42,340 nt of DNA from Candidatus Saccharimonadota bacterium (GTDB lineage Bacteria; Patescibacteriota; Saccharimonadia; Saccharimonadales; Saccharimonadaceae), in assembly GCA_017645955.1 (NCBI GenBank), contig JAGCNM010000024.1, positions 1-42,340 of the forward strand, given 5' to 3'. Position numbers and translations under genes: made by a program. How positions within the stretch are numbered: the first letter of the stretch is position 1; each line of letters opens with the position of its first letter. Shown piece by piece: positions 32,340 through 41,975 of this stretch. The notes beneath the pieces are model-generated. The model was not told the DNA's origin and searched no databases. It worked only from the letters and a program-made list of their open reading frames with translations.

Positions 32340-33302
32340 GTGAAACGTTTAAAGATTTTTTCTTGGATTATATTTATTGCACTGGCGATTGTAATCGCGC
32401 TAAATTATCAGTTTATATTTGATTTTACGAGGGGATTGTTTTATTCGCCGTCTCCGGAGATGGCGAGTATTAGAGAGAGTTTGGATTTAAGCTCGCGAGG
32501 AGAGATTCTTTTTAATGCCTCGATGCCGGAACTGAATTCCGAGGAAGAGTTTAACGAAAATTGTCATTCTTATGATGAGGTTGAGACGATTCTAGGTTGC
32601 TATACGATGCAGAAGATTTACGTTTACGATATAAAAGATAAAGAATTAAACGGGATTGTTGAGCTAACTTCGGCACACGAACTATTACATGCGGTTTATG
32701 AGAGGATGTCGATTTCTGAGAGAGATGGGCTAAGAGAGTTGCTAGAAGCGGTTTATAAGGATAATTTAGAGACTTTGGAGGATGAAATAGGCGCGTACGA
32801 ATCTGCCGAACAATTAGAGGAAATATATGTAAGGGCGGGGACGGAGATTAAGAAACTCCCGGAGGAGCTTGAGGCACATTACGGAAAAATCTTCAATGAC
32901 CGAAAAAAGGTTGTGAAGTATTATGAGGGGTATAATGGGGTGTTTAAGAAGTATGAAGCGGAGATGACGAATATTAAGGCGAAATTAGATGAGCTAGGCG
33001 GAGTGATTAATGAGAAAAATGAGGAATATGCGAGGAAAGTTGACGAACTAAATGCTCGTATAGACGCTTTTAATAATTGTGCAGATTCGCCGGGATGTTT
33101 TAGTACTGATACGGAGTTTTATAATAAGCGAGAGGAGCTTTTAAGAGAGGTAATTTTGATTGATTCGCTTTATGATGAGATTGACGGCTTAATAGAACAA
33201 TATAATGTGAACGTTGATGACTATAATGATAATGTGTTGATTATCGAGAGGTTTCAAGATATCATTAATTCGCATGTTAGAGTAGAAGATATTAATAACT
33301 AA
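32340..33302 (+). CDS. Membrane-anchored coiled-coil protein with HELLH motif
   Basis: A 320-residue protein with an N-terminal membrane segment (about 7-24) and the rest probably outside. HELLH at 113-117 (in LTSAHELLHAVYER) fits a zinc metalloprotease HExxH site, and a glutamate in EEIYVRAGTE (about 160-169), some 45 residues later, could be the third ligand as in gluzincins. A region of long charged helices follows (about 190-310, likely coiled coil), with two cysteines in NNCADSPGC. I know no characterised relative. It starts with GTG at 32340; a TGATACACT sequence six bases before suggests a leaderless mRNA. It opens a run of envelope genes ending at 36137. Confidence 0.7.
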   Translation: MKRLKIFSWIIFIALAIVIALNYQFIFDFTRGLFYSPSPEMASIRESLDLSSRGEILFNASMPELNSEEEFNENCHSYDEVETILGCYTMQKIYVYDIKDKELNGIVELTSAHELLHAVYERMSISERDGLRELLEAVYKDNLETLEDEIGAYESAEQLEEIYVRAGTEIKKLPEELEAHYGKIFNDRKKVVKYYEGYNGVFKKYEAEMTNIKAKLDELGGVINEKNEEYARKVDELNARIDAFNNCADSPGCFSTDTEFYNKREELLREVILIDSLYDEIDGLIEQYNVNVDDYNDNVLIIERFQDIINSHVRVEDINN

Positions 33303-33313
33303 AGGAGGTAAAA

Positions 33314-34183
33314 ATGTACGACGATGCATTAGACAACGGTTTTGAAAGAATGCCGGGTACGACGCCAGGAGAGGTTTCCGCGGAACAGATGGCAAAAGCG
33401 GAACAATGGGAGGATTCGATGGGGACTGGAGTGCCGGAGTTTTCAGGAGACCAATTCGGAAATGCGAACGAGAGCAATGAATACTACGGAGAGGCGGCGA
33501 AAGCGGAGGCTGAGTCGGGCGAAGCGTATGACAAGGGAATTTCGGATGCAGCGGCGTTAATTAATTATGGTTTAGATGCGGCGGCGCGAGAAAAAGGGGT
33601 TGAGTTTGTTGTTCAGACGATAAAGACTTTTAATGCAAGCGGAAAAGAGGACCCGATTGGAGACTTATTTAATGCGATGGGGATTGATACGCCGACCGAG
33701 GCGAAAGATGTCCGAAATGAGGCTTTAGCGGCAAGGGATAATGTGAATGAATTCCGTGAAGGCGTTAATCAGCCTTCACAAAAAAGATCGCTAGAGGGGG
33801 CGTTTAAGGCGATTGAAGATATGAAAGAGTTAATCCTAGAGGTAGAAGGGGCAGACCCGAGATACGAAGAGCTAAGAGCGGGGGCGAGAGCGGCCGGAAA
33901 AGGATATTTTGAATATGCGGTAAATAGCTATGGGACAAGAGGATTAACGGAGCTCTTTAGAGTACTGGCGATGCAAAGAGAAATGAGTGAGGCGAAGGAA
34001 GAGGAGCCGGAGAAGGAAGAAGCGAAAGTAGAGATGTTAGACGAAGGGATACTCGGGGGAGATTCAATCGCAACAGAAGAAGGGGAAGAAGAGAAGAAGC
34101 CGGAGGAGGAAGTTATAAAGCGAGAGGAGCATCTCGGTACAGAAACTTTAAACCCGGAGATTCTAAAGAAGGATGCGTCTTAG
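33314..34183 (+). CDS. Acidic uncharacterised protein
   Basis: A 289-residue acidic protein without signal peptide or membrane segment. The N-terminus (1-75) is polar and Gly/Glu-rich. The centre (about 76-220) is predicted helical, including GVEFVVQTIKTFNASG and GYFEYAVNSYGTRGLTELFR. The last 65 residues are a Glu/Lys-rich low-complexity tail. No family is recognised. The start has a strong AAAGGAGG site six bases upstream. Its 3' end overlaps the start of the nuclease gene at 34173 by 11 bases, so the two are translationally linked, and a shared function with the membrane nuclease is possible. Confidence 0.7.
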   Translation: MYDDALDNGFERMPGTTPGEVSAEQMAKAEQWEDSMGTGVPEFSGDQFGNANESNEYYGEAAKAEAESGEAYDKGISDAAALINYGLDAAAREKGVEFVVQTIKTFNASGKEDPIGDLFNAMGIDTPTEAKDVRNEALAARDNVNEFREGVNQPSQKRSLEGAFKAIEDMKELILEVEGADPRYEELRAGARAAGKGYFEYAVNSYGTRGLTELFRVLAMQREMSEAKEEEPEKEEAKVEMLDEGILGGDSIATEEGEEEKKPEEEVIKREEHLGTETLNPEILKKDAS

Positions 34184-34865
34184 AAGACGACGAATTTCGG
34201 TTATTATTGCGGCGTTAATTGCGGCGGCGGTATGGTTATTTTTGAACCCGAATAGCTACGAGGAGGTTTTTACGCCGATTTCTGATACTGGGGCGGAAGC
34301 CTCGGTGATGCCTGCGCTAAAGGTTCTCGAGGAACTAGAAGTTAAGGGGCGAGCGCCGAAGAAGGGCTACAGTCGGGAGGAGTTTTATGATGGGTGGCCG
34401 CTAGTAGACGGATGTAGTTTAAGGCAGAAGATTTTAAAGCGGGAACTTGGGGAGACGGCGGTTTTAGAGGGATGTAATGTTGTCGCTGGCGAGTTTGATG
34501 AGCCTTATACGGGCGAACACATAGTTTTAAGAAATAAGACAAATGTCGCACAAATCCAAATTGACCATGTTGTGGCATTATCGGACGCTTGGCAAAAAGG
34601 CGCGCAATATTTAGATTATGAGACGAGAAATAAGATTGCGACGGATCCGTTAAACTTACTAGCGGTAGATGGAGAGGCGAATGAACGAAAATCAGATGGA
34701 GATGCGGCGACGTGGCTGCCGAAGAATAAAAAGTTTAGGTGCCAGTATGTTGCAAGGCAAGTTTCGGTAAAATTTAAATATGGTTTATGGGTTACCGAAG
34801 CGGAAAAAGAAGCAATTTCAAGAGTATTACAAAATTGTCCAAATGAACCCGTTATAGGTATTTAA
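34173..34865 (+). CDS. Membrane-anchored DUF1524 (GmrSD-type HNH) nuclease
   Basis: A 230-residue protein with a basic N-terminus (RLRRRR), one membrane segment or signal anchor (about 8-24) and a DUF1524 HNH-type nuclease domain outside the cell. The motif IDHVVAL has the catalytic D131-H132, followed by DPLNLLAV (N161) and NERKSDGDAATWLP (N170, K173), the conserved order of secreted actinobacterial HNH endonuclease family proteins. C81, C101 and C190 may form disulfides. It starts inside the end of the upstream acidic gene. An external nuclease would suit an organism that needs nucleotides from outside (inference); attack on competing DNA is another reading. Confidence 0.85.
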   Translation: MRLRRRRISVIIAALIAAAVWLFLNPNSYEEVFTPISDTGAEASVMPALKVLEELEVKGRAPKKGYSREEFYDGWPLVDGCSLRQKILKRELGETAVLEGCNVVAGEFDEPYTGEHIVLRNKTNVAQIQIDHVVALSDAWQKGAQYLDYETRNKIATDPLNLLAVDGEANERKSDGDAATWLPKNKKFRCQYVARQVSVKFKYGLWVTEAEKEAISRVLQNCPNEPVIGI

Positions 34866-34929
34866 TAATTAACTATTTTTTCAAATTTTCAGCCTAGAAA
34901 TGACAAGCTTAAAAAGGTTGATTATTATA

Positions 34930-34938
34930 TGTTATAAT
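34930..34938 (+). promoter_or_regulatory. Extended -10 promoter of the rhodanese-like gene
   Basis: TGTTATAAT, about 25 bases before the ATG at 34964, in the only promoter-sized gap of this gene run. Confidence 0.55.
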
Positions 34939-34963
34939 AGTTACAAGTAAAGTGGAGAAGAAT

Positions 34964-35644
34964 ATGAAAAAGTATATTTGGTGGACCGGAATTATCGCGG
35001 TAGCGTTGATAATTGCGGCGTTTTTTGTTGGAAAACAGGCGGGAAACGAGTTAGCTAGTTTGCCAGCGCCAGAACTTTCGGAGGGACAAAGGGGCGAGCT
35101 CGGAATTGATAAAAACGTTAATGAGGCGACGATTGATCGGTATTTAAATCGTTCAGACGCAGTTTATAGGGATATGAGGATGTTAAAGGATCCGGGAAAT
35201 TATGAGGCGATTGGCGGAGATTCGTATTTATCGGGGTTTGTAAAAGGGTTTGAGCTCGTTTCGTTTCCGTATATCGTAAACGTAAAGGGTTTACCTGAAG
35301 CGGTCGGGGAGACTTATACTGGGAAGACGCTATTTAGACAGCATTCAGACGGAAGCTATACGGCGAACTATGAGGAATCGGAAGAGATTTTAGAGGCTTT
35401 ATTCCCGAAAGACAAGGTAATCTTCTTGATGTGTGGGGGCGGAGGATATTCCGGGATGATGAAGAATTTACTGGTTGAGTTCGGATGGGACGGAGATAAG
35501 ATTTATGATGTTGGCGGGTACTGGTTCTATGAAGGGGAGAATAATGTAGAAGTTAAGCGAGAAAAAGAAGACGGAACGGTAGTTTATGACTTCTATAAGG
35601 TACCGGTACATGAGATTACGTTTGATAATTTAACGGAGAAATAG
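34964..35644 (+). CDS. Membrane-anchored rhodanese-like protein
   Basis: A 226-residue protein with one N-terminal membrane segment (about 5-22) and an extracytoplasmic domain resembling rhodanese. DMR at 70-72 fits the D-x-R motif before the fold. KVIFLMCGGGGYSGMMKNLL has the catalytic-loop cysteine C157 after a beta strand, and VGGYWFYEG matches the terminal GG-x-x-W/Y region. Rhodaneses transfer sulfur or sense redox state through that cysteine. I use the ATG at 34964, with GGAG seven bases upstream; a GTG at 34952 is an alternative. It is followed by a single-cysteine thioredoxin-like protein, suggesting a thiol-related function at the envelope (inference). Confidence 0.65.
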   Translation: MKKYIWWTGIIAVALIIAAFFVGKQAGNELASLPAPELSEGQRGELGIDKNVNEATIDRYLNRSDAVYRDMRMLKDPGNYEAIGGDSYLSGFVKGFELVSFPYIVNVKGLPEAVGETYTGKTLFRQHSDGSYTANYEESEEILEALFPKDKVIFLMCGGGGYSGMMKNLLVEFGWDGDKIYDVGGYWFYEGENNVEVKREKEDGTVVYDFYKVPVHEITFDNLTEK

Positions 35645-35645
35645 G

Positions 35646-36137
35646 GTGGTTAAGAAAGATAAGAAAAAACAAGGGAGGATTGTTGGGTGCATTATTGCGT
35701 TTATAGTGGTTTTGATTGGGCTTATGGTCGTTGGCGGGGCGATGAACGGATGGTTTGAGGATGAGAAAGTTATTCTAAGCGAAGAGTATATCGGCGAGTT
35801 TACGGAGTTTAAAACTATTTCGGTGGCGGAATATGAGGAATTAATTAATAAGAAGGATTCGTTCATTTTGCTTGTTGATCAGAACGGATGTGATACGGCG
35901 GATAAGGTAAGGGGATTTGCGGAGAATTGGGGAAAAGAAGAGGGAGTGAAGGTGCTTAGAATTATGTTTGCGGAGATGAGAGAAACGTCTTTACATAACG
36001 AAATAAAGTATTATCCGTCGGTAGCGGTAATTTCTAAAGGTAGGGTCTTAGGCTTTTTAAGAGCGGATAGTGATGAGGACGCGGAAAAGTTTAATAGTTA
36101 CGAGGTGTTTAAGGGGTGGATGGAAGGGTATATATAA
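35646..36137 (+). CDS. Membrane-anchored thioredoxin-like protein with one active-site-like cysteine
   Basis: A 163-residue protein with a basic N-terminus, a membrane segment (about 11-33) and an extracytoplasmic domain with a thioredoxin-like pattern. A strand SFILLVDQ leads into NGCDTADKV, placing C82 where thioredoxins have CxxC, and YYPSVAVISKGRVLGFLRAD gives the cis-proline and the following strands. Only one cysteine sits at the site, so it would not be a classical disulfide oxidoreductase. It starts with GTG one base after the previous stop, with GGAG inside the end of that gene, so it is coupled to the rhodanese-like protein. Confidence 0.65.
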   Translation: MVKKDKKKQGRIVGCIIAFIVVLIGLMVVGGAMNGWFEDEKVILSEEYIGEFTEFKTISVAEYEELINKKDSFILLVDQNGCDTADKVRGFAENWGKEEGVKVLRIMFAEMRETSLHNEIKYYPSVAVISKGRVLGFLRADSDEDAEKFNSYEVFKGWMEGYI

Positions 36138-36154: not shown

Positions 36155-36179
36155 AGACTCTAGAAAAGGAGTCTTTTTT
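36155..36179 (+). terminator. Terminator-like hairpin overlapping the recombinase ribosome site
   Basis: AGACTC and GAGTCT form a six-base stem with an eight-base loop, followed by a run of six T, one base before the recombinase ATG at 36181. The AAAAGGAG ribosome site (36164-36171) lies in the loop and 3' arm. The hairpin could end transcription from the upstream operon and also hold down translation of the recombinase. Confidence 0.65.
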
Positions 36180-36180
36180 G

Positions 36181-37017
36181 ATGAAAAAAATTGAAAAACA
36201 GGTTAAATCATATCTTTATTATTGTGAGAGAGTCAGGAGGATGTCGGAAACGACAATTAATTTTAAAGAATATGTAATAAATGAATTTATAAGAGTTTCT
36301 AGGTTAGGAGATTTGAGAAGGCTGAATAATAAGACTTTTGATAAATGGGTTTCATACGAGATGAGGAAAGGGGTTTCGGCGCGCTCTGTAAACACTTATA
36401 AGGCGATTGTTTTGGCGATGGTGCGATATTTTGAAGATACCGGGATGAAAGTCCCTTTGAATTTTAAGTTGGTTCAAAGCTTAAATGAGGGGGAATTGAC
36501 AAGAAAATTTTACACAAAAGAAGACATTGAAAAGGTAATACGCTATGCGGATTTGATGACGGAATTAATGATTCGGATTATGTTCGAGACAGGGATGAGG
36601 ATTGCGGAGTTAACGAGGCTTAGAGTTTCAAATTTCGAGGGAAGAAAGGTAAAGTTTATTGGAAAGGGGCGGAAAGCGAGAGAGGCATATATTAGCGAGG
36701 AGACGCATAATGCATTAGAAATTTTTATAGGCAACTACAATATCCGGGATTATTTGTGGGGGTTTCAGGCTATGAACGGAGAGCCGCCTACAACTAATAC
36801 GATTAGGAATCGGTTAAAAACTGCGTTTGGGGAGGCTGGGTTTGAGGGGTTTTATCCGCATGCTTTAAGGCATTCTTTCGCGACAAATTTACAAATAAAG
36901 GGAGCGTCGGTAGTAGAGATAAAAGAAATGATGGGGCATGAATCAATTGCGACGACCGAAAGGTATCTACACGGATTCGATGGGAGGTTAGAAGAGTTAT
37001 TCGAAAAATATCGTTAA
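36181..37017 (+). CDS. Tyrosine recombinase (Xer/integrase family)
   Basis: A 278-residue site-specific recombinase. An N-terminal SAM-like core-binding domain (1-100) is followed by the catalytic domain with all six residues: R140 in GMRIAEL, K162 in GKGRK, H227 and R230 in HALRHSF, H253 in MMGHESI and the nucleophile Y262 in TERYLH. Length and form are close to XerC/XerD/XerA, so it could be the chromosome-dimer resolvase. It could instead act locally, since it adjoins two surface cassettes with a 51-bp inverted repeat between them. I start at ATG 36181; a TTG just before is less likely. Its stop overlaps the convergent DUF916-like gene by four bases. Confidence 0.9.
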   Translation: MKKIEKQVKSYLYYCERVRRMSETTINFKEYVINEFIRVSRLGDLRRLNNKTFDKWVSYEMRKGVSARSVNTYKAIVLAMVRYFEDTGMKVPLNFKLVQSLNEGELTRKFYTKEDIEKVIRYADLMTELMIRIMFETGMRIAELTRLRVSNFEGRKVKFIGKGRKAREAYISEETHNALEIFIGNYNIRDYLWGFQAMNGEPPTTNTIRNRLKTAFGEAGFEGFYPHALRHSFATNLQIKGASVVEIKEMMGHESIATTERYLHGFDGRLEELFEKYR

Positions 37018-37958
37018 TTATCCCTTTTGCGAGCTTTAAAACGAGTAATGAGCCAGAATATGATTAATACTAGGGCAAAGATGATGACGAAGAGTAGCCA
37101 GAGTGGGCACATGATAATGGTTTTTTCGATAATTGAGGTTTCGCCGAAGATTCTAACTATTTGTTTGGCGCGGAAGATGCCGACTGAAGGTAATTCACAG
37201 GTTTGAACATGGTATCTCTCGGTTTCCGGTAAGATTAAACTAGTTTCGGGCTTTTCTTCATTTGTACAGATCTCTTCATCGTTAAAGAGTGGCCAAACTT
37301 GGAAGATATATTCAGCGTCGGTATGTACGTTGCCATTATTTTTAACCATAGAAGAAGCCTGGAGCGGTCCGTTTAGGATGAATGAGGGAATGTTGTTCTC
37401 AGTGATGGTGCCTTCTTCGCGAGTCTCACCGGCGACTTCGGCGTAAATAATGGAGGCGAATTGGAATTTTTGATCAATAGATATACTTCCTTCTACCGGT
37501 TGGTTGCTTGTGGTTTCGTCGATAACTAGAATAGTTGCGTATTGACCGCCGCCGGGGGCATCTTCTGGGACTTCGATAGAGTAACCGATAGTTGTTTTTT
37601 CGCCTGGGGCTAAGGTACCGCCAGTATTGTCGAGCTTAATCCAGTTCATGATTTGATTGTAGCTTGTGACATTAATGTGACTAATAGAACCATAATCATC
37701 GTTTGATTCTTCGGTTTTAGATTGACTAAAGGAGCCGATTTCTACTGAGTATTTTAAATCGCGTGTGCTGTTGGTTGAGTTTGATACTAAAAGAGAATTA
37801 TTGTAGGTTTCGCCAGGCATGAGGATTATTTTTTGGTATGGGGGAGAGACTGTCATTGAGTTTGAATCGGCAAAGGTAATTCCGTTAATAATTCCTAGAT
37901 TAAGACAGATGGTTAGTATTCCGAATACTAGGGTTTTAATAAAGTGATTGTTTTTCAT
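37014..37958 (-). CDS. DUF916-like cell-surface protein, left cassette gene 3
   Basis: A 314-residue secreted protein kept in the membrane by its C-terminus. A signal peptide (1-30, ending ITFA) is followed by MTVSPPYQKIILMPGETYNN, Ig-like beta domains with APGEKTTIGYSIEVPEDAPGGGQYATI, and a second domain with VKNNGNVHTDAEYIFQVWPLF. A C-terminal membrane segment follows (about 284-306, in CPLWLLFVIIFAL) with a basic tail. This layout matches DUF916/DUF3324 proteins found with WxL surface proteins in Gram-positive bacteria. It is a paralogue of the protein at 41016. It starts with AAAAGGAGG a few bases upstream and follows the 190-residue gene by 25 bases. Confidence 0.82.
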   Translation of the reverse strand: MKNNHFIKTLVFGILTICLNLGIINGITFADSNSMTVSPPYQKIILMPGETYNNSLLVSNSTNSTRDLKYSVEIGSFSQSKTEESNDDYGSISHINVTSYNQIMNWIKLDNTGGTLAPGEKTTIGYSIEVPEDAPGGGQYATILVIDETTSNQPVEGSISIDQKFQFASIIYAEVAGETREEGTITENNIPSFILNGPLQASSMVKNNGNVHTDAEYIFQVWPLFNDEEICTNEEKPETSLILPETERYHVQTCELPSVGIFRAKQIVRIFGETSIIEKTIIMCPLWLLFVIIFALVLIIFWLITRFKARKRDN

Positions 37959-37983
37959 TGACCTCCTTTTAATGTCATTTTAT

Positions 37984-38556
37984 TTAATCATGGTTTTTAC
38001 AAGAAAAACCTTTTAATTCGTAAAACTTCTTAAAATCTTCTAAGGTAAAATCGCCGGTTTTTTTATATTCGTCGTCATTGATAAAAAATAATTTTGCGAC
38101 GGTTTGGTTAATCTTTTTCGTTTCAGCGTAAAGTGATATTACAAGTTTACTTTTATGAGATGAGAAGACGGGATTGAGTGTTTCTTGATATACTCCATTG
38201 GCGCTCATGTATTTATTGTAATCGGCGTGCATGGCAGCTTTTGCGCTTTCGGCGGCATCGTCAGAATTAAAAGTCCCGTCATAGCGATAAGACATTTCTT
38301 TAACTTTTTTATCTGTAAACATTATTTTAATGCTATGCGTGAATCTCTGTGCAGTTTTAGATGTGAAGAAAGGGCTGTTTGGGCTAGAAGAAGAGCATTC
38401 AAGAGACTCGTAATCGTTTGCTTTTGATTGGGTTGTTGTATAGGATTCTTTTTTAGAGGTTAAAAACCAAACGATTATTAGAATAATACCAACGATTAAT
38501 ATTAAAGAAATCGTTTCGACGATATACTTATGATTCTTTTTTCTTTTTTCAGACAT
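37984..38556 (-). CDS. Small membrane-anchored protein, left cassette gene 2
   Basis: A 190-residue protein with a basic N-terminus, a membrane segment (about 13-32) and an extracytoplasmic domain of about 150 residues. There is one cysteine near the start of the domain (LECSSS) and one at the C-terminus (GFSCKNHD). The protein at 40422 has the same layout and ends NFSCEITN, with shared features such as a helix AAESAKAAMHADY against SSEAKQAEAYAQADY, so the two are diverged paralogues. The two cysteines may form a disulfide. The function is unknown. A strong terminator separates it from the surface-protein gene upstream, so it should be expressed at a lower level. Confidence 0.7.
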   Translation of the reverse strand: MSEKRKKNHKYIVETISLILIVGIILIIVWFLTSKKESYTTTQSKANDYESLECSSSSPNSPFFTSKTAQRFTHSIKIMFTDKKVKEMSYRYDGTFNSDDAAESAKAAMHADYNKYMSANGVYQETLNPVFSSHKSKLVISLYAETKKINQTVAKLFFINDDEYKKTGDFTLEDFKKFYELKGFSCKNHD

Positions 38557-38588
38557 TTGATTTTACCTTATCTCTATTGTTTTTCTAT

Positions 38589-38619
38589 AAGAAAATCCCG
38601 GCCTACCCGGGATTTTCTT
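38589..38619. terminator. Intracassette terminator, left cassette
   Basis: A perfect 13-base stem (AAGAAAATCCCGG with CCGGGATTTTCTT) and five-base loop between genes 1 and 2 of the left cassette. It probably limits read-through from the surface-protein gene into the two anchored-protein genes. Confidence 0.8.
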
Positions 38620-38637
38620 ATTTTTAAATAACTTTCT

Positions 38638-39306
38638 TTAGCTGGCTGGGTTATAAAGGGTGTATTTAACAGCACCAGTATAAGTACCAGTATCCTGAGT
38701 TTGGTCTACATATACCTGATAGGTAATTGTGAAGGCATTAGCGAGGCTACCAGAACCAGTTACAATGTCAGCCTCAGTAGAAGGAACCGCTGCGTAGGCA
38801 TTGCTATAACCGGTAGCATAAGAAGCACCAGAAGCCGTAGCAATCTTGAATGCCCAGTTAGAAGTAGGACCACTTGTAGCTGTACCAGCGACGATTTGGT
38901 CAGTAGCATTAGCATTATAGAGATCATTATTGTTAGCACCAGCACCCGCGCCAACAGCAGTTAACTTCCAACCAGCTTCAGCACCAGCCCCAGCACCAGT
39001 GTTACAAGACACGTCGATGCTGTTATCAGCAGTTGTACCAGAAGTTTGATCAGCAGTACCACCAATATCAGTCCTAAGCTCACCGTTGTGCATTTCTACA
39101 GTGTAGCTGTTGGTAAGATGTGGAGCCGATCCATTACCACCAGTCGTAGAGTTGTTGTTTACGATTGTACAACCAGCTGGAATGTTGACATTTAATGTGT
39201 CAGTGATATCGCCAGCTGGAGTTGCTGCTGCAAATACTCCTGCGAATGGCAAAACTGCTAAACCAAGAGCCGCTACGCCCGCGCCAGCAATTATTGATTT
39301 TTTCAT
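38638..39306 (-). CDS. Secreted WxL-like surface protein, left cassette gene 1
   Basis: A 222-residue secreted protein with a clear signal peptide (AGVAALGLAVLPFAGVFA, cleavage near 26). The mature part is rich in Thr, Ala, Asn and Gly. It opens with DTLNVNIPAGCTI, has a second cysteine (DVSCNTG), and ends DTGTYTGAVKYTL, which resembles the end of WxL domains with YTL in place of WxL. No membrane anchor is present, so it may be held to the wall by partners such as the DUF916-like protein. It is a paralogue of the protein at 39732. Start and AGAGGAG site lie within the 51-bp conserved leader. Confidence 0.8.
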   Translation of the reverse strand: MKKSIIAGAGVAALGLAVLPFAGVFAAATPAGDITDTLNVNIPAGCTIVNNNSTTGGNGSAPHLTNSYTVEMHNGELRTDIGGTADQTSGTTADNSIDVSCNTGAGAGAEAGWKLTAVGAGAGANNNDLYNANATDQIVAGTATSGPTSNWAFKIATASGASYATGYSNAYAAVPSTEADIVTGSGSLANAFTITYQVYVDQTQDTGTYTGAVKYTLYNPAS

Positions 39307-39312
39307 ATTGAT

Positions 39313-39363
39313 TTTTTCTCCTCTGCAGTTTTAAGCAGAATTAATTTATATTTTGTGTTAAAT
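39313..39363 (-). repeat. 51-bp inverted repeat, left copy (conserved leader)
   Basis: It is 49/51 identical, in inverted orientation, to 39677-39727. It holds the last part of the left leader: ATTTAACACAAAATATAAAT, then a TCTGC/GCAGA hairpin (outer pair weaker in this copy) and the GAGGAG ribosome site. Confidence 0.9.
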
Positions 39364-39395
39364 ATAAAACGCTCTTTTGCATTAGAGATTTTCGT

Positions 39396-39401
39396 ATTAT
39401 A
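39396..39401 (-). promoter_or_regulatory. -10 box of the left surface-protein gene
   Basis: TATAAT on the minus strand, about 90 bases before the ATG at 39306. The -35 region is poor, so it looks weaker than the opposite promoter. Confidence 0.5.
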
Positions 39402-39455
39402 GGTAGGTTTAAAAGACTAGGTCTATATAGTTATAAAAACAGGGGAATGGATAAT

Positions 39456-39478
39456 AAAAAAACACCTATAAGTAGGTG
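39456..39478 (-). terminator. Terminator of the structured RNA
   Basis: CACCTA and TAGGTG form a six-base stem with a four-base loop, followed by seven T on the minus strand. Confidence 0.7.
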
Positions 39479-39545
39479 ATTTTGAGTGCTTGCTTCCAGA
39501 CTTAGGAGAATCCATGGTCGGTTTTAGAGTAAACCCTACAAGCAC
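39456..39545 (-). ncRNA. Candidate structured RNA or attenuator between the cassettes
   Basis: A minus-strand unit of about 90 nt. It begins at 39545 with GTGCTTG, which pairs with CAAGCAC (39487-39493 on the plus strand) to close a junction. Inside are a GGTTT/AAACC hairpin and a second irregular arm. It ends in a terminator at 39456-39478. GTAGG, just after the first strand of the closing stem, is complementary to CCTAC in the terminator's 5' arm, so an alternative antiterminator is possible. It may be a free sRNA or a riboswitch-like leader of the left cassette. I recognise no known RNA class. Confidence 0.5.
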
Positions 39546-39551
39546 ATTTAT

Positions 39552-39560
39552 ATCATATCA
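39552..39560 (-). promoter_or_regulatory. Extended -10 promoter of the structured RNA
   Basis: TGATATGAT on the minus strand ends six bases before the G that opens the closing stem of the candidate RNA, so the predicted transcript begins exactly with that stem. Confidence 0.5.
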
Positions 39561-39626
39561 AAGATGCAGCATAAGATAATGGTTGTGGAAAAGTTTAGAA
39601 AAAACTTAAATAAACATAAAAAATAC

Positions 39627-39655
39627 TTGACAATGTTATTGTGCTTATGTAAAAT
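39627..39655 (+). promoter_or_regulatory. Strong promoter of the right surface-protein gene
   Basis: A consensus TTGACA (39627-39632) and TAAAAT (39650-39655) are exactly 17 bases apart, driving a leader of about 70 bases before the ATG at 39732. Confidence 0.8.
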
Positions 39656-39676
39656 GGGAAATGTTAAAGGTTATAC

Positions 39677-39727
39677 ATTTAACACAAAATATAAATAATT
39701 TCTGCTTAAAACTGCAGAGGAGAAAAA
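39677..39727 (+). repeat. 51-bp inverted repeat, right copy (conserved leader)
   Basis: Inverted partner of 39313-39363, with two mismatches in 51. It contains TCTGC and GCAGA arms with an eight-base spacer, directly before the GAGGAG ribosome site. This could be an RNA hairpin near the ribosome site or a recombinase core site in DNA. Confidence 0.9.
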
Positions 39728-39731
39728 TAAT

Positions 39732-40325
39732 ATGAAAAAAATATTAGCAGGTGCCGGCGCGGTGGCTTTGGCTGCTTTGCCAATGGCTGGTGTATTTGCT
39801 CAAGATTTGAATGTGACTGATACTCTTCAGATCACTGTTAATTCGGCTTGTACGATAACGGAAGGAAGTACTACCGATGGACTTGACAACAAGGATACTA
39901 CTTATGCTGCTACGGTAGCGAACGGTGCGGAGGCAGATTTTAGTAGTACACATACTGGTACTCACGCTTTCCATGTAAATTGTAACAGCCAGGGTGGTTG
40001 GTCTTTCTCGGCTACGCCACAAAACCTTACTGGTTATGTCGCTGCCAATGACTCAACGACTAATGGTGATAACATTAACTTTGTAGCTTCGGGTAGTTAT
40101 GAGGCCAGTGGTGCTACTGGTATGTGGACTGCTGAGATTACGGCGCCAAGTGGTATTACGGTTACACAACCTTCTACGGCTGGAACTGCTAACACGGTGA
40201 TTAATGCTACTAACGCTCAGGCTGCTAATGTTGAAATCACCTCAGAATACCATGCCTATGTAGGTACCCAAACTACAGCAGGTTACTATGAAGGTACGAT
40301 TGCCTATACTTTGGCTGCTCTCTAA
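39732..40325 (+). CDS. Secreted WxL-like surface protein, right cassette gene 1
   Basis: A 197-residue secreted protein. The signal peptide (AGAGAVALAALPMAGVFA, cleavage near 23) is almost that of the left paralogue. The mature protein begins DLNVTDTLQITVNSACTI, has a second cysteine in HVNCNSQGGWSFS, is rich in Thr, Ala, Asn and Gly, and ends TAGYYEGTIAYTL. Conserved ends and a diverged middle suggest the two proteins share attachment and differ in what they show to the outside. It is driven by the strongest promoter of the region and followed by a stem-loop before gene 2. A major surface protein role is inference. Confidence 0.8.
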   Translation: MKKILAGAGAVALAALPMAGVFAQDLNVTDTLQITVNSACTITEGSTTDGLDNKDTTYAATVANGAEADFSSTHTGTHAFHVNCNSQGGWSFSATPQNLTGYVAANDSTTNGDNINFVASGSYEASGATGMWTAEITAPSGITVTQPSTAGTANTVINATNAQAANVEITSEYHAYVGTQTTAGYYEGTIAYTLAAL

Positions 40326-40345
40326 TCTTAATTGATTAGTATTAG

Positions 40346-40370
40346 TAATCCCCCTTTAACAGGGGGATTA
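40346..40370 (+). terminator. Intracassette stem-loop, right cassette
   Basis: TAATCCCCC and GGGGGATTA form a nine-base stem with a seven-base loop, in the same place as the left cassette terminator. The T-run is poor, so it may attenuate or protect the mRNA 3' end more than stop transcription. Confidence 0.6.
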
Positions 40371-40421
40371 TTGGTATGGTTTTTGTTGTGAAGCTATGTT
40401 ATCATTGAAGAAAGGAGATGA

Positions 40422-40982
40422 ATGGACAGTGAGAAGAAAAAAAGAATAAACTATGTTGTTTGTTTTCTTATTTTGATAATTGTTATAGTGTTATTGTTTT
40501 TGTTTTTATTGTTTAGTGGGAGAGAATCGGATGATATCAAGGTATCTTGGGAAGAAAAGAAGATAGGTTTAAAGTGCACTGATTCAACATTATTACATCC
40601 AGCTTTACGGGATTATACCCCAAAGTCACATACTAATACAATTATGGCGAATTTTGTTGACGACAAACTATCGGCTATTACTTTATACTATGTTGGGAAT
40701 TATAGTTCGTCATCAGAAGCAAAACAGGCAGAGGCATATGCTCAAGCAGATTATGGATTAATCTTAGCTAAAGAATACGGCGTCGATACAGAATCTTTCT
40801 CGCATTCTTTCATGATTGATGGAAACATAGTGAGCTTAACCATTACGGCAGAAAATGGTGATATTAGTGATAGGACGGCGCCGTATTTCTTATTGGAACA
40901 GAACAGATCTTTTCCGAAGAGCATGGATGGCGTAAAGCAACGGTATGAAGAGAGGAATTTCTCTTGTGAAATAACTAACTAG
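40422..40982 (+). CDS. Small membrane-anchored protein, right cassette gene 2
   Basis: A 186-residue protein with a basic N-terminus (SEKKKRIN), a very hydrophobic membrane segment (about 10-31) and an extracytoplasmic domain. It has one cysteine early in the domain (LKCTDST) and one at the C-terminus (NFSCEITN), as in the left paralogue. The middle contains ALRDYTPKSHTNTIMANF and SSSEAKQAEAYAQADYG. No enzyme motif is visible. The start has an AAAGGAG site. It overlaps no neighbour; gene 3 starts 33 bases downstream. A structural or assembly role with the surface and DUF916-like proteins is likely from conserved order only. Confidence 0.7.
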   Translation: MDSEKKKRINYVVCFLILIIVIVLLFLFLLFSGRESDDIKVSWEEKKIGLKCTDSTLLHPALRDYTPKSHTNTIMANFVDDKLSAITLYYVGNYSSSSEAKQAEAYAQADYGLILAKEYGVDTESFSHSFMIDGNIVSLTITAENGDISDRTAPYFLLEQNRSFPKSMDGVKQRYEERNFSCEITN

Positions 40983-41015
40983 ATGATACAATTAATATTA
41001 AATAAAGGAGGTAAA

Positions 41016-41975
41016 ATGACTTCGTTTAGAAGAGTCTTGTATGGATTGGTGGGGACGATAATAATGATGATTGGGGTATTTTTGTCTCAGGAACCGGTTT
41101 TGGCTTTTTCGGTGTCACCTATGAAACAGACTGTGTCTTTAGTTCCTGGTCAAACCTACTCAAATAGAGTAATAACTTCTTTGCCGCTAGACGCTGGCAA
41201 AGATATGCATTATGAGGTTTCGGTAGTACCATTTAAGGTGAATGACAAAGATAATAACTATAGTATTGACTTAAGTGGTGCAGATGAGCGGAATGAAATA
41301 GTTAAGTGGGTTTCGTTATCTGATGGAGTAAACACAGTAAAGAGCGGGGATGTCTTGACTGGGGAATTAGCTCCTGGGAAAAAGATTGATTTTATTTATA
41401 CCATTAATGTTCCTGAGTCCGTAATGGGTGGTGGTCAATACTTTGCAGTTTTAGTTAAATCAATTCCTAATTCGTCTGATGATGGTGACGAAAACTTAAT
41501 AATATCGGAGACATATTCAATTGCGTCTGTGGTGTATGCAGAATTACCTGGTGAAATTAAAATGGACGGGGCTTTAAAGGAGAATAATATAAATGGTTTT
41601 CTTCTTAACCCGCCAATAACAACGTCGTTTGTTGCTGAGAATACTGGGAATACGCATTTTGCTGTTACTTATTATTTGCAGGTTTATCCTCTGTTTTCTG
41701 ATGAGGAAATCTATACTAATGAAGAAAAGCCTTCAATGGATTATGTATTGCCTGAGACGTCGAGATACATTTCTCAAACCTGGGATGAAGCGCCGTCAAT
41801 CGGTATTTTTAAAGTAAGACAGACCGCTTATTATGATTTTGCAGAAGACAAACAAAGTGTAACGGAAAGAATTGTGATTATTTGCCCATTATGGCTATTA
41901 TTTATAGTTATTTTTGCGATAACGATGTTTGTTATGTGGCTGATTGCTAGGCTAAGAGCGCGCCGTAAAGAGTAG
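41016..41975 (+). CDS. DUF916-like cell-surface protein, right cassette gene 3
   Basis: A 319-residue secreted, C-terminally anchored protein, paralogue of the protein at 37014. A signal peptide (about 1-30, ending PVLAFS) is followed by VSPMKQTVSLVPGQTYSN, then LAPGKKIDFIYTINVPES and MGGGQYFAVLV, then FVAENTGNTHFAVTYYLQVYPLF. The C-terminal membrane segment starts at CPLWLLFIVIFAI, with a basic tail (RLRARRKE). The family match is DUF916/DUF3324 of WxL loci. I start at the ATG at 41016, which has AAAGGAGGT five bases upstream; an in-frame ATG at 40983 overlaps the end of gene 2's region and has no such site. Confidence 0.82.
   Translation: MTSFRRVLYGLVGTIIMMIGVFLSQEPVLAFSVSPMKQTVSLVPGQTYSNRVITSLPLDAGKDMHYEVSVVPFKVNDKDNNYSIDLSGADERNEIVKWVSLSDGVNTVKSGDVLTGELAPGKKIDFIYTINVPESVMGGGQYFAVLVKSIPNSSDDGDENLIISETYSIASVVYAELPGEIKMDGALKENNINGFLLNPPITTSFVAENTGNTHFAVTYYLQVYPLFSDEEIYTNEEKPSMDYVLPETSRYISQTWDEAPSIGIFKVRQTAYYDFAEDKQSVTERIVIICPLWLLFIVIFAITMFVMWLIARLRARRKE

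Follow-up and report, generated by a model that had tools for sequence, protein, structure and literature searches.

Could a promoter that lies between two divergent sets of surface-protein genes be turned from one set to the other by recombination at a short inverted repeat? Saccharibacteria are tiny, reduced bacteria of a parasitic lineage, ultrasmall and probably episymbiotic. Surface variation in ultrasmall bacteria bears on the hosts that they hold and the phages that they admit, and remains a largely open question. The locus described here, from a gut member of this group, carries an inverted repeat, a promoter and a recombinase gene, and we have compared it across 174 genomes of its genus.

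Layout of the locus and its surface cassettes

The window, i.e. the whole 42,340-nt stretch that was analysed, is one complete contig (C42) of a 912-kb genome in 60 contigs, whose nearest named relatives are Candidatus Saccharibacteria from goat duodenum and from another metagenome. Its features run in the order U0-U1-U2-U3 (32340-36137), the recombinase gene REC (plus strand), C-B-A (minus strand), a loop, and A′-B′-C′ (plus strand), with coordinates collected in Table 1. The left arm of the 51-bp inverted repeat matches the reverse complement of the right arm at 49/51 positions (58 nt at 93% when extended) and the two enclose a loop of 313 bp (39364-39676), as first described. The chance expectation for such an inverted pair in the window is ~4e-18. 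The repeats had also been predicted to fall within the leaders of a divergent pair of surface-protein genes, and this too holds. The A-B-C operons that flank the loop (37014-39306, minus; 39732-41975, plus) are divergent paralogues.

Table 1 Features of the proposed switch locus, in window coordinates
Feature	Position	Strand	Remarks
REC, Xer-like tyrosine recombinase, 279 aa, proposed invertase	36178..37017	+	PF00589 E=2.4e-29
C (proximal cassette), membrane-anchored WxLIP-like protein, 314 aa	37014..37958	-	
B (proximal cassette), single-TM protein, 190 aa	37984..38556	-	two invariant Cys in family
A (proximal cassette), secreted surface protein, 222 aa	38638..39306	-	signal peptide, two conserved Cys
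Left inverted-repeat arm	39313..39363	-	5′ leader of A; includes hairpin and RBS
Left recombination core AACACAAAATATAAATTAAT	39340..39359	-	genus-wide pattern
Small structured RNA and intrinsic terminator	39463..39546	-	homologues in G027, G072
Conserved TTGTGGAAAAG element upstream of -35 box	39583..39593	+	DnaA-box-like on other strand
Only recognisable promoter, TTGACA-17-TAAAAT	39627..39655	+	11/12 match; faces distal cassette
Right inverted-repeat arm	39677..39727	+	5′ leader of A′
Right recombination core AACACAAAATATAAATAAT	39681..39699	+	genus-wide pattern
A′ (distal cassette), secreted surface protein, 197 aa	39732..40325	+	inferred ON in this assembly
B′ (distal cassette), single-TM protein, 186 aa	40422..40982	+	
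C′ (distal cassette), WxLIP-like membrane-anchored protein, 330 aa	40983..41975	+	

Both C and C′ open with a signal or TM segment, contain two beta domains and finish with a TM helix at the C terminus. The family PF06030 (WxLIP_PGBD) is matched weakly by 11 of 25 C-family members (best E=3.1e-5), the window's C′ not being among them, and the best PDB folds for the AlphaFold model of C′ (pLDDT 71) are the E. faecium WxLIP structures 9i1y and 9i25 (E=2e-10, TM ~0.4). These family matches and the modelled fold point to a WxLIP-like assembly at the cell surface as the probable product of the operons. Conservation in the A family, examined in 32 members, is confined to two cysteines (C40 and C84 of A′) and the signal peptide; otherwise the proteins diverge, with 31% mean column identity. 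None of the 32 A proteins gave a match to the WxL domain PF13731, and A-family profiles matched no solved structure; the AlphaFold model of A′ (pLDDT 36) was left out. No relative was found for B. In G005:C17, G024:C7, L119 and L160, tandem arrays of 4-6 A genes replace inverted pairs, and such arrays are putatively another route to A diversity.

The loop also contains the terminated RNA unit that was noted at the outset, and which proved to be real, running on the minus strand from about 39546 to 39463. Its fold (z=-2.4) is predicted to consist of a ~64-nt three-way junction followed by the terminator, and Rfam has no family for it, the best matches being far below gathering scores. Homologues at 89% and 81% identity occur in only two other genomes out of the 174 (L010:1511-1575; L096:1520-1583), where they sit elsewhere, each with its own promoter and each adjoining a gene of 131-138 aa that was not found in the source genome; one of these genes has a sub-threshold LPD3 match. 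The patchy distribution and high conservation suggest a mobile or toxin-linked RNA, which is probably a passenger unrelated to switching.

Promoter, recombination core and segment orientation

The original prediction placed a strong right-facing and a weaker left-facing promoter in the loop. The right-facing one is real, and its position is kept in relatives. The left-facing one (10/12 at 39425-39396) was rejected as a conserved weak opposing promoter, since its score is within shuffle range (5% of shuffles reach it) and it has no counterpart upstream of the promoterless core copies in relatives. No promoter clearly above background was seen upstream of the proximal A, which we infer to be OFF in this assembly.

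Inside the arms lies a core of ~20 bp with the strict consensus AACACAAA(A)TATAAn(n)TAAT. It is not an obvious symmetric Xer site, its length differs by 1 bp among genomes, and in the source genome it is present only at this locus. Promoters were scored for the 39 core copies at REC-containing loci that have scorable upstream sequence. A -35/-10 pair matching 11-12 of 12 positions was found 24-26 bp upstream of the core in 17 copies, and the other 22 gave a mean score of 7.9, equal to the shuffled background. Among REC-containing loci with scorable flanks, there were never two promoter-bearing copies per genome. Having a single promoter-bearing copy, with the rest at background, indicates that one operon is ON and that the other is without a recognisable promoter. 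The state of the locus is thus read as an ON/OFF choice between two operons, not one between strong and weak expression, although the silence of the other operon is inferred.

An upstream element, TTGTGGAAAA, precedes the -35 box at 35 of 38 promoters in the genus, at a distance of 25-61 bp that is mostly 34-37 or 43-48 bp. The two main positions are ~11 bp apart, about one helical turn, and the spacing resembles that for a helically phased activator site. The element at 39583..39593 in the window flips together with the promoter. We also see that a larger A-like protein (330-403 aa) is often encoded just upstream of the promoter and codirectionally with it (L138, L123, L128, L129, L115, L127, L159).

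Comparing orientation among related genomes had been proposed as a check, and this comparison revealed a reversed segment in two pairs. REC, C-B-A and A′-B′-C′ follow one another in JAFQXV010000007 (L004; the same stretch as G077) as they do in the window. The distal operons of the two are orthologues (A′ 73%, B′ 63%, C′ 73%), and the proximal C of JAFQXV010000007 resembles the proximal C of the window most (50% vs 37%). Its promoter block, however, faces the proximal operon, with an alignment score against the window of 155 when reversed and 78 forward. The second pair, G118 and G072, are sisters by the REC tree (support 99/91), and here the inter-site segment holds a large A-like gene and the promoter; over >1 kb this segment is reversed between the two, in alignments of 684 bp (74%) and 343 bp (75%), with the flanking leaders in place. 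With the U genes as reference, the promoter points to the far operon in the window, G166, G097, G136, G007, G092, G164, G080 and G086, and to the near operon in G077, G072 and G175. The two near-facing cases with intact REC require two separate changes on the REC tree. Both orientations were found between related species only, and stray contigs of G083 and G081 contained no inverted state in the same species, only allelic cassette variation.

The recombinase and the distribution of its putative sites

A complete tyrosine recombinase gene beside the left cassette was part of the original prediction, and REC fits this description, although its start codon is uncertain (TTG at 36178). The catalytic residues R, K, HxxR, H and Y are kept across the locus-bound REC clade. 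The source genome contains only two PF00589 genes, REC and a housekeeping-type Xer on C5, and REC falls below the curated NCBIfam XerC/XerA cut-offs (120 bits vs 335 for XerC). A separate REC-like clade is found away from the locus in G128, G085, G154, G168, G133, G083, G073 and G116 (L147, L148, L151-L157), with no inverted repeats nearby at the five loci checked.

The strict core occurs in 22 of the 174 genomes, and opposed pairs or triples occur in 15, all of which have REC (in G175 as a pseudogene) in the same genomic place or on a matching contig. Opposed pairs are found in 0 of the 154 genomes counted as lacking REC (Fisher 9e-18; 1e-15 if G175 is counted as lacking it), and a control pattern, the reversed core, had 0 matches in any genome. 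Tyrosine-recombinase inversion systems are expected to have inverted recombination sites that bound the promoter segment, and an intact tyrosine recombinase that accompanies these sites; both are present here, the latter as judged by the catalytic R-K-HxxR-H-Y set and by co-occurrence, and assignment to this general kind rests on such anatomical features. The remaining REC-containing genomes are not clean negatives for paired cores. G164 has a variant core (GACACAAATATAA) that is identical in both copies, G009 and G132 have one site each, <150 bp from a contig end, the G177 contig stops ~85 bp past REC, and the core copies of G081 are on separate short contigs. Cores in G083 are only found on two short contigs (L110 and L111, i.e. 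G083:C11 and C5). One matches G092 at 99.8% identity and the second has 141 identical nt in common with G034; both were treated as likely contamination from other species of the genus. L191 (G081:C20) likewise appears to belong to another species of the genus. Genomes without REC in which the locus was read have U3, one leader and one operon (or tandem A genes), with no inverted partner. Among 24 genera sampled from the same order, none matched the leader DNA or the A protein, so that on this sample the switch system looks restricted to the genus. Scanning IMG/VR for a pattern of core and leader together also gave no match.

In G136, G092, G007 and G072 (L116, L112, L104, L127), REC lies within the segment between opposed sites, so that its own orientation would flip. 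The case of G175 counts against a switch, as paired, opposed sites persist there although REC (L113, G175:C9, 3274-4107) is a pseudogene with in-frame stops. The two leader hairpins of G175 have diverged (0.85), and this locus is possibly a locked switch. For 9 of 41 core sites a contig end is no more than 150 bp away, vs 0.7 expected, as when a sample contains mixed orientations; repeats alone also contribute to such breaks, and could account for them.

Leaders within a genome resemble each other closely. From core to ATG, median identity is 0.98 within genomes vs 0.81 between, and the same comparison gives 0.56 for mature coding sequence and 0.51 for the 60 nt upstream of the core. The best match of a leader is in its own genome for 27 of 34, vs 1.3 expected (permutation maximum 8 in 2000). 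The two G166 leaders have different hairpins and spacing and yet the same ATTTAACACAAAATATAAA, and the exchange is therefore placed within this sequence. Inversion by itself does not produce the identity downstream of the core, for which gene conversion, a recent duplication or A-gene exchange is required; that either of the first two could underlie leader similarity outside the core is a reservation about the inversion reading.

Some loci have additional sites. A third is present in G080 and G118, where two convergent A genes lie between inverted sites, and in G086 two whole convergent operons do so. Flipping these three-site segments would change the protein that stands at the promoter. When L191 (G081:C20) is compared with L112 (G092:C20), the flank, core, leader and signal sequence are common to both (140 nt at 100%) and the downstream flank is 98.75% identical, yet a different A-containing cassette lies between. 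On this sequence evidence, cassettes vary between strains of the G092 species, and one of the junctions falls in the leader and signal sequence.

Inversion weighed against its alternatives

The reading that we hold with considerable confidence, short of certainty, is that the locus is a site-specific promoter-inversion switch operated by the adjacent tyrosine recombinase. REC would recombine the two opposed ~20-bp cores in the 5′ leaders of the divergent A-B-C operons, and this exchange would flip the 313-bp loop with its sole recognisable promoter, which stands 24-26 bp upstream of the core. Either A′B′C′ (as assembled) or ABC would then be transcribed, the other being silent, and the RBS and coding regions would be unaltered in either state because the core lies in the untranslated leader. 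The population would show one or the other WxLIP-type surface assembly, and cells very probably switch the surface that they display, as far as can be judged without expression data. The identity of REC as the enzyme, its activity, the reversibility of the flip within a strain, and expression that follows orientation, with the off-promoter operon silent, are all inferred. The inversion first predicted is strongly supported by the reversed segment, the co-occurrence of REC and sites, the single promoter and the co-modified core, far more so than by the window on its own, but the predicted exchange of promoter strengths gives way to an ON/OFF choice.

Because the repeat falls on the leader, the RBS and the beginning of paralogous genes, and because REC-less genomes have recognisably similar leaders, it could be argued that the repeat is merely the shared 5′ leader of duplicated divergent operons, kept for translation or regulation, with no recombination at all. 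We find this scarcely credible given that the promoter block is reversed between relatives and that each locus has a single promoter. In addition, the strict core is missing from most REC-less leaders and is never paired there, and the G166 leaders diverge outside the core, not inside it. Were inversion instead due to RecA-type homologous recombination between the leaders, with REC having another role, one would point to the identity of leader and signal peptide, which exceeds the core (e.g. 1.00/1.00 in G072) and offers 60-130 bp of homology. However, opposed cores co-occur tightly with REC, which is located at the locus and sometimes inside the loop, and the contiguous shared stretch in G166 is ~20 bp, which is short for RecA, making this explanation very improbable.

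A further possibility, partly overlapping the inversion switch, is that REC is mainly a cassette exchanger acting at the leader core, through which operons would be acquired, lost or swapped, with inverted pairs as a by-product. The different A cassettes found between common flanks and leader in G081:C20 and G092:C20 would fit this, as would the three-site loci with convergent operons. We nevertheless consider it unlikely, since most REC-containing loci have two opposed sites around one promoter, an arrangement that leads to inversion and not excision, and since swaps are also possible by ordinary homologous recombination between strains.

Returning to the promoter-inversion switch, we can offer only tentatively, and with less than even confidence, the broader idea that the locus is a surface-diversification engine that combines a promoter flip between operons, shuffling of convergent A genes or whole operons by means of extra sites, and between-strain cassette exchange at the leader. 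If this is true, a cell lineage could vary what its bacterial host, or phages, encounter at the surface. About one in nine genomes of the genus have a site, a recombinase and a promoter that are all defined, which makes the question of how these bacteria vary their surface testable using existing metagenome reads, and the genus offers clean pairs of species with and without REC.

Comparison with known systems

No report of promoter inversion in Saccharibacteria was found in the open-access full-text literature, subscription papers being outside the search. In the sap system of Campylobacter fetus, a single promoter sits on an invertible 6-kb segment and can drive one or the other of two divergent surface-protein genes with a common conserved 5′ region; inversion is RecA-dependent, involving long homology. 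The present locus is similar in its single promoter and its two divergent surface genes with a conserved 5′ region, but differs in having a short core and a dedicated tyrosine recombinase. As to the products, the operons are similar to the WxL/WxLIP systems of Firmicutes in that the C family has weak WxLIP_PGBD matches and a modelled fold nearest to E. faecium WxLIP, and a small secreted partner is encoded beside it, and differ from them in that A has no WxL domain match and no relative of B was found.

Bacteroides, to which the locus was originally likened, has invertible promoters (Mpi/Tsr) whose recombinases act on several dispersed loci, each switching ON/OFF (PMC2268961). That parallel remains apt in so far as a promoter of surface genes would invert between short inverted repeats; however, the recombinase here is local, the core is confined to a single locus in the source genome, and the choice is between two operons. 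The vpma type is nearer. In Mycoplasma agalactiae, Xer1 inverts segments and thereby brings silent vpma genes under one promoter, acting at sites from -1 to -72 of each gene in which a 21-bp block at -51 to -72 is invariant (PMC2268961). Whole A-B-C operons of secreted and WxLIP-like proteins take the place of the lipoprotein genes found there, and the locus usually has two divergent operons and a small promoter loop, in a different phylum; descent of REC from Xer1 has not been shown. The likenesses are one promoter, silent surface genes, a tyrosine recombinase gene at the locus, a site in the leader near the start codon, with the 21-bp block resembling the core at the 5′ end of our leaders, and several sites that allow shuffling. 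The marks of this type that can be read from DNA, a site in the 5′ leader and a single promoter, are both present, with silence of the paralogues inferred. By analogy, and with respect to mechanism only, vpma/Xer1, together with vsp of M. bovis and vsa of M. pulmonis, is the closest counterpart of the proposed switch.
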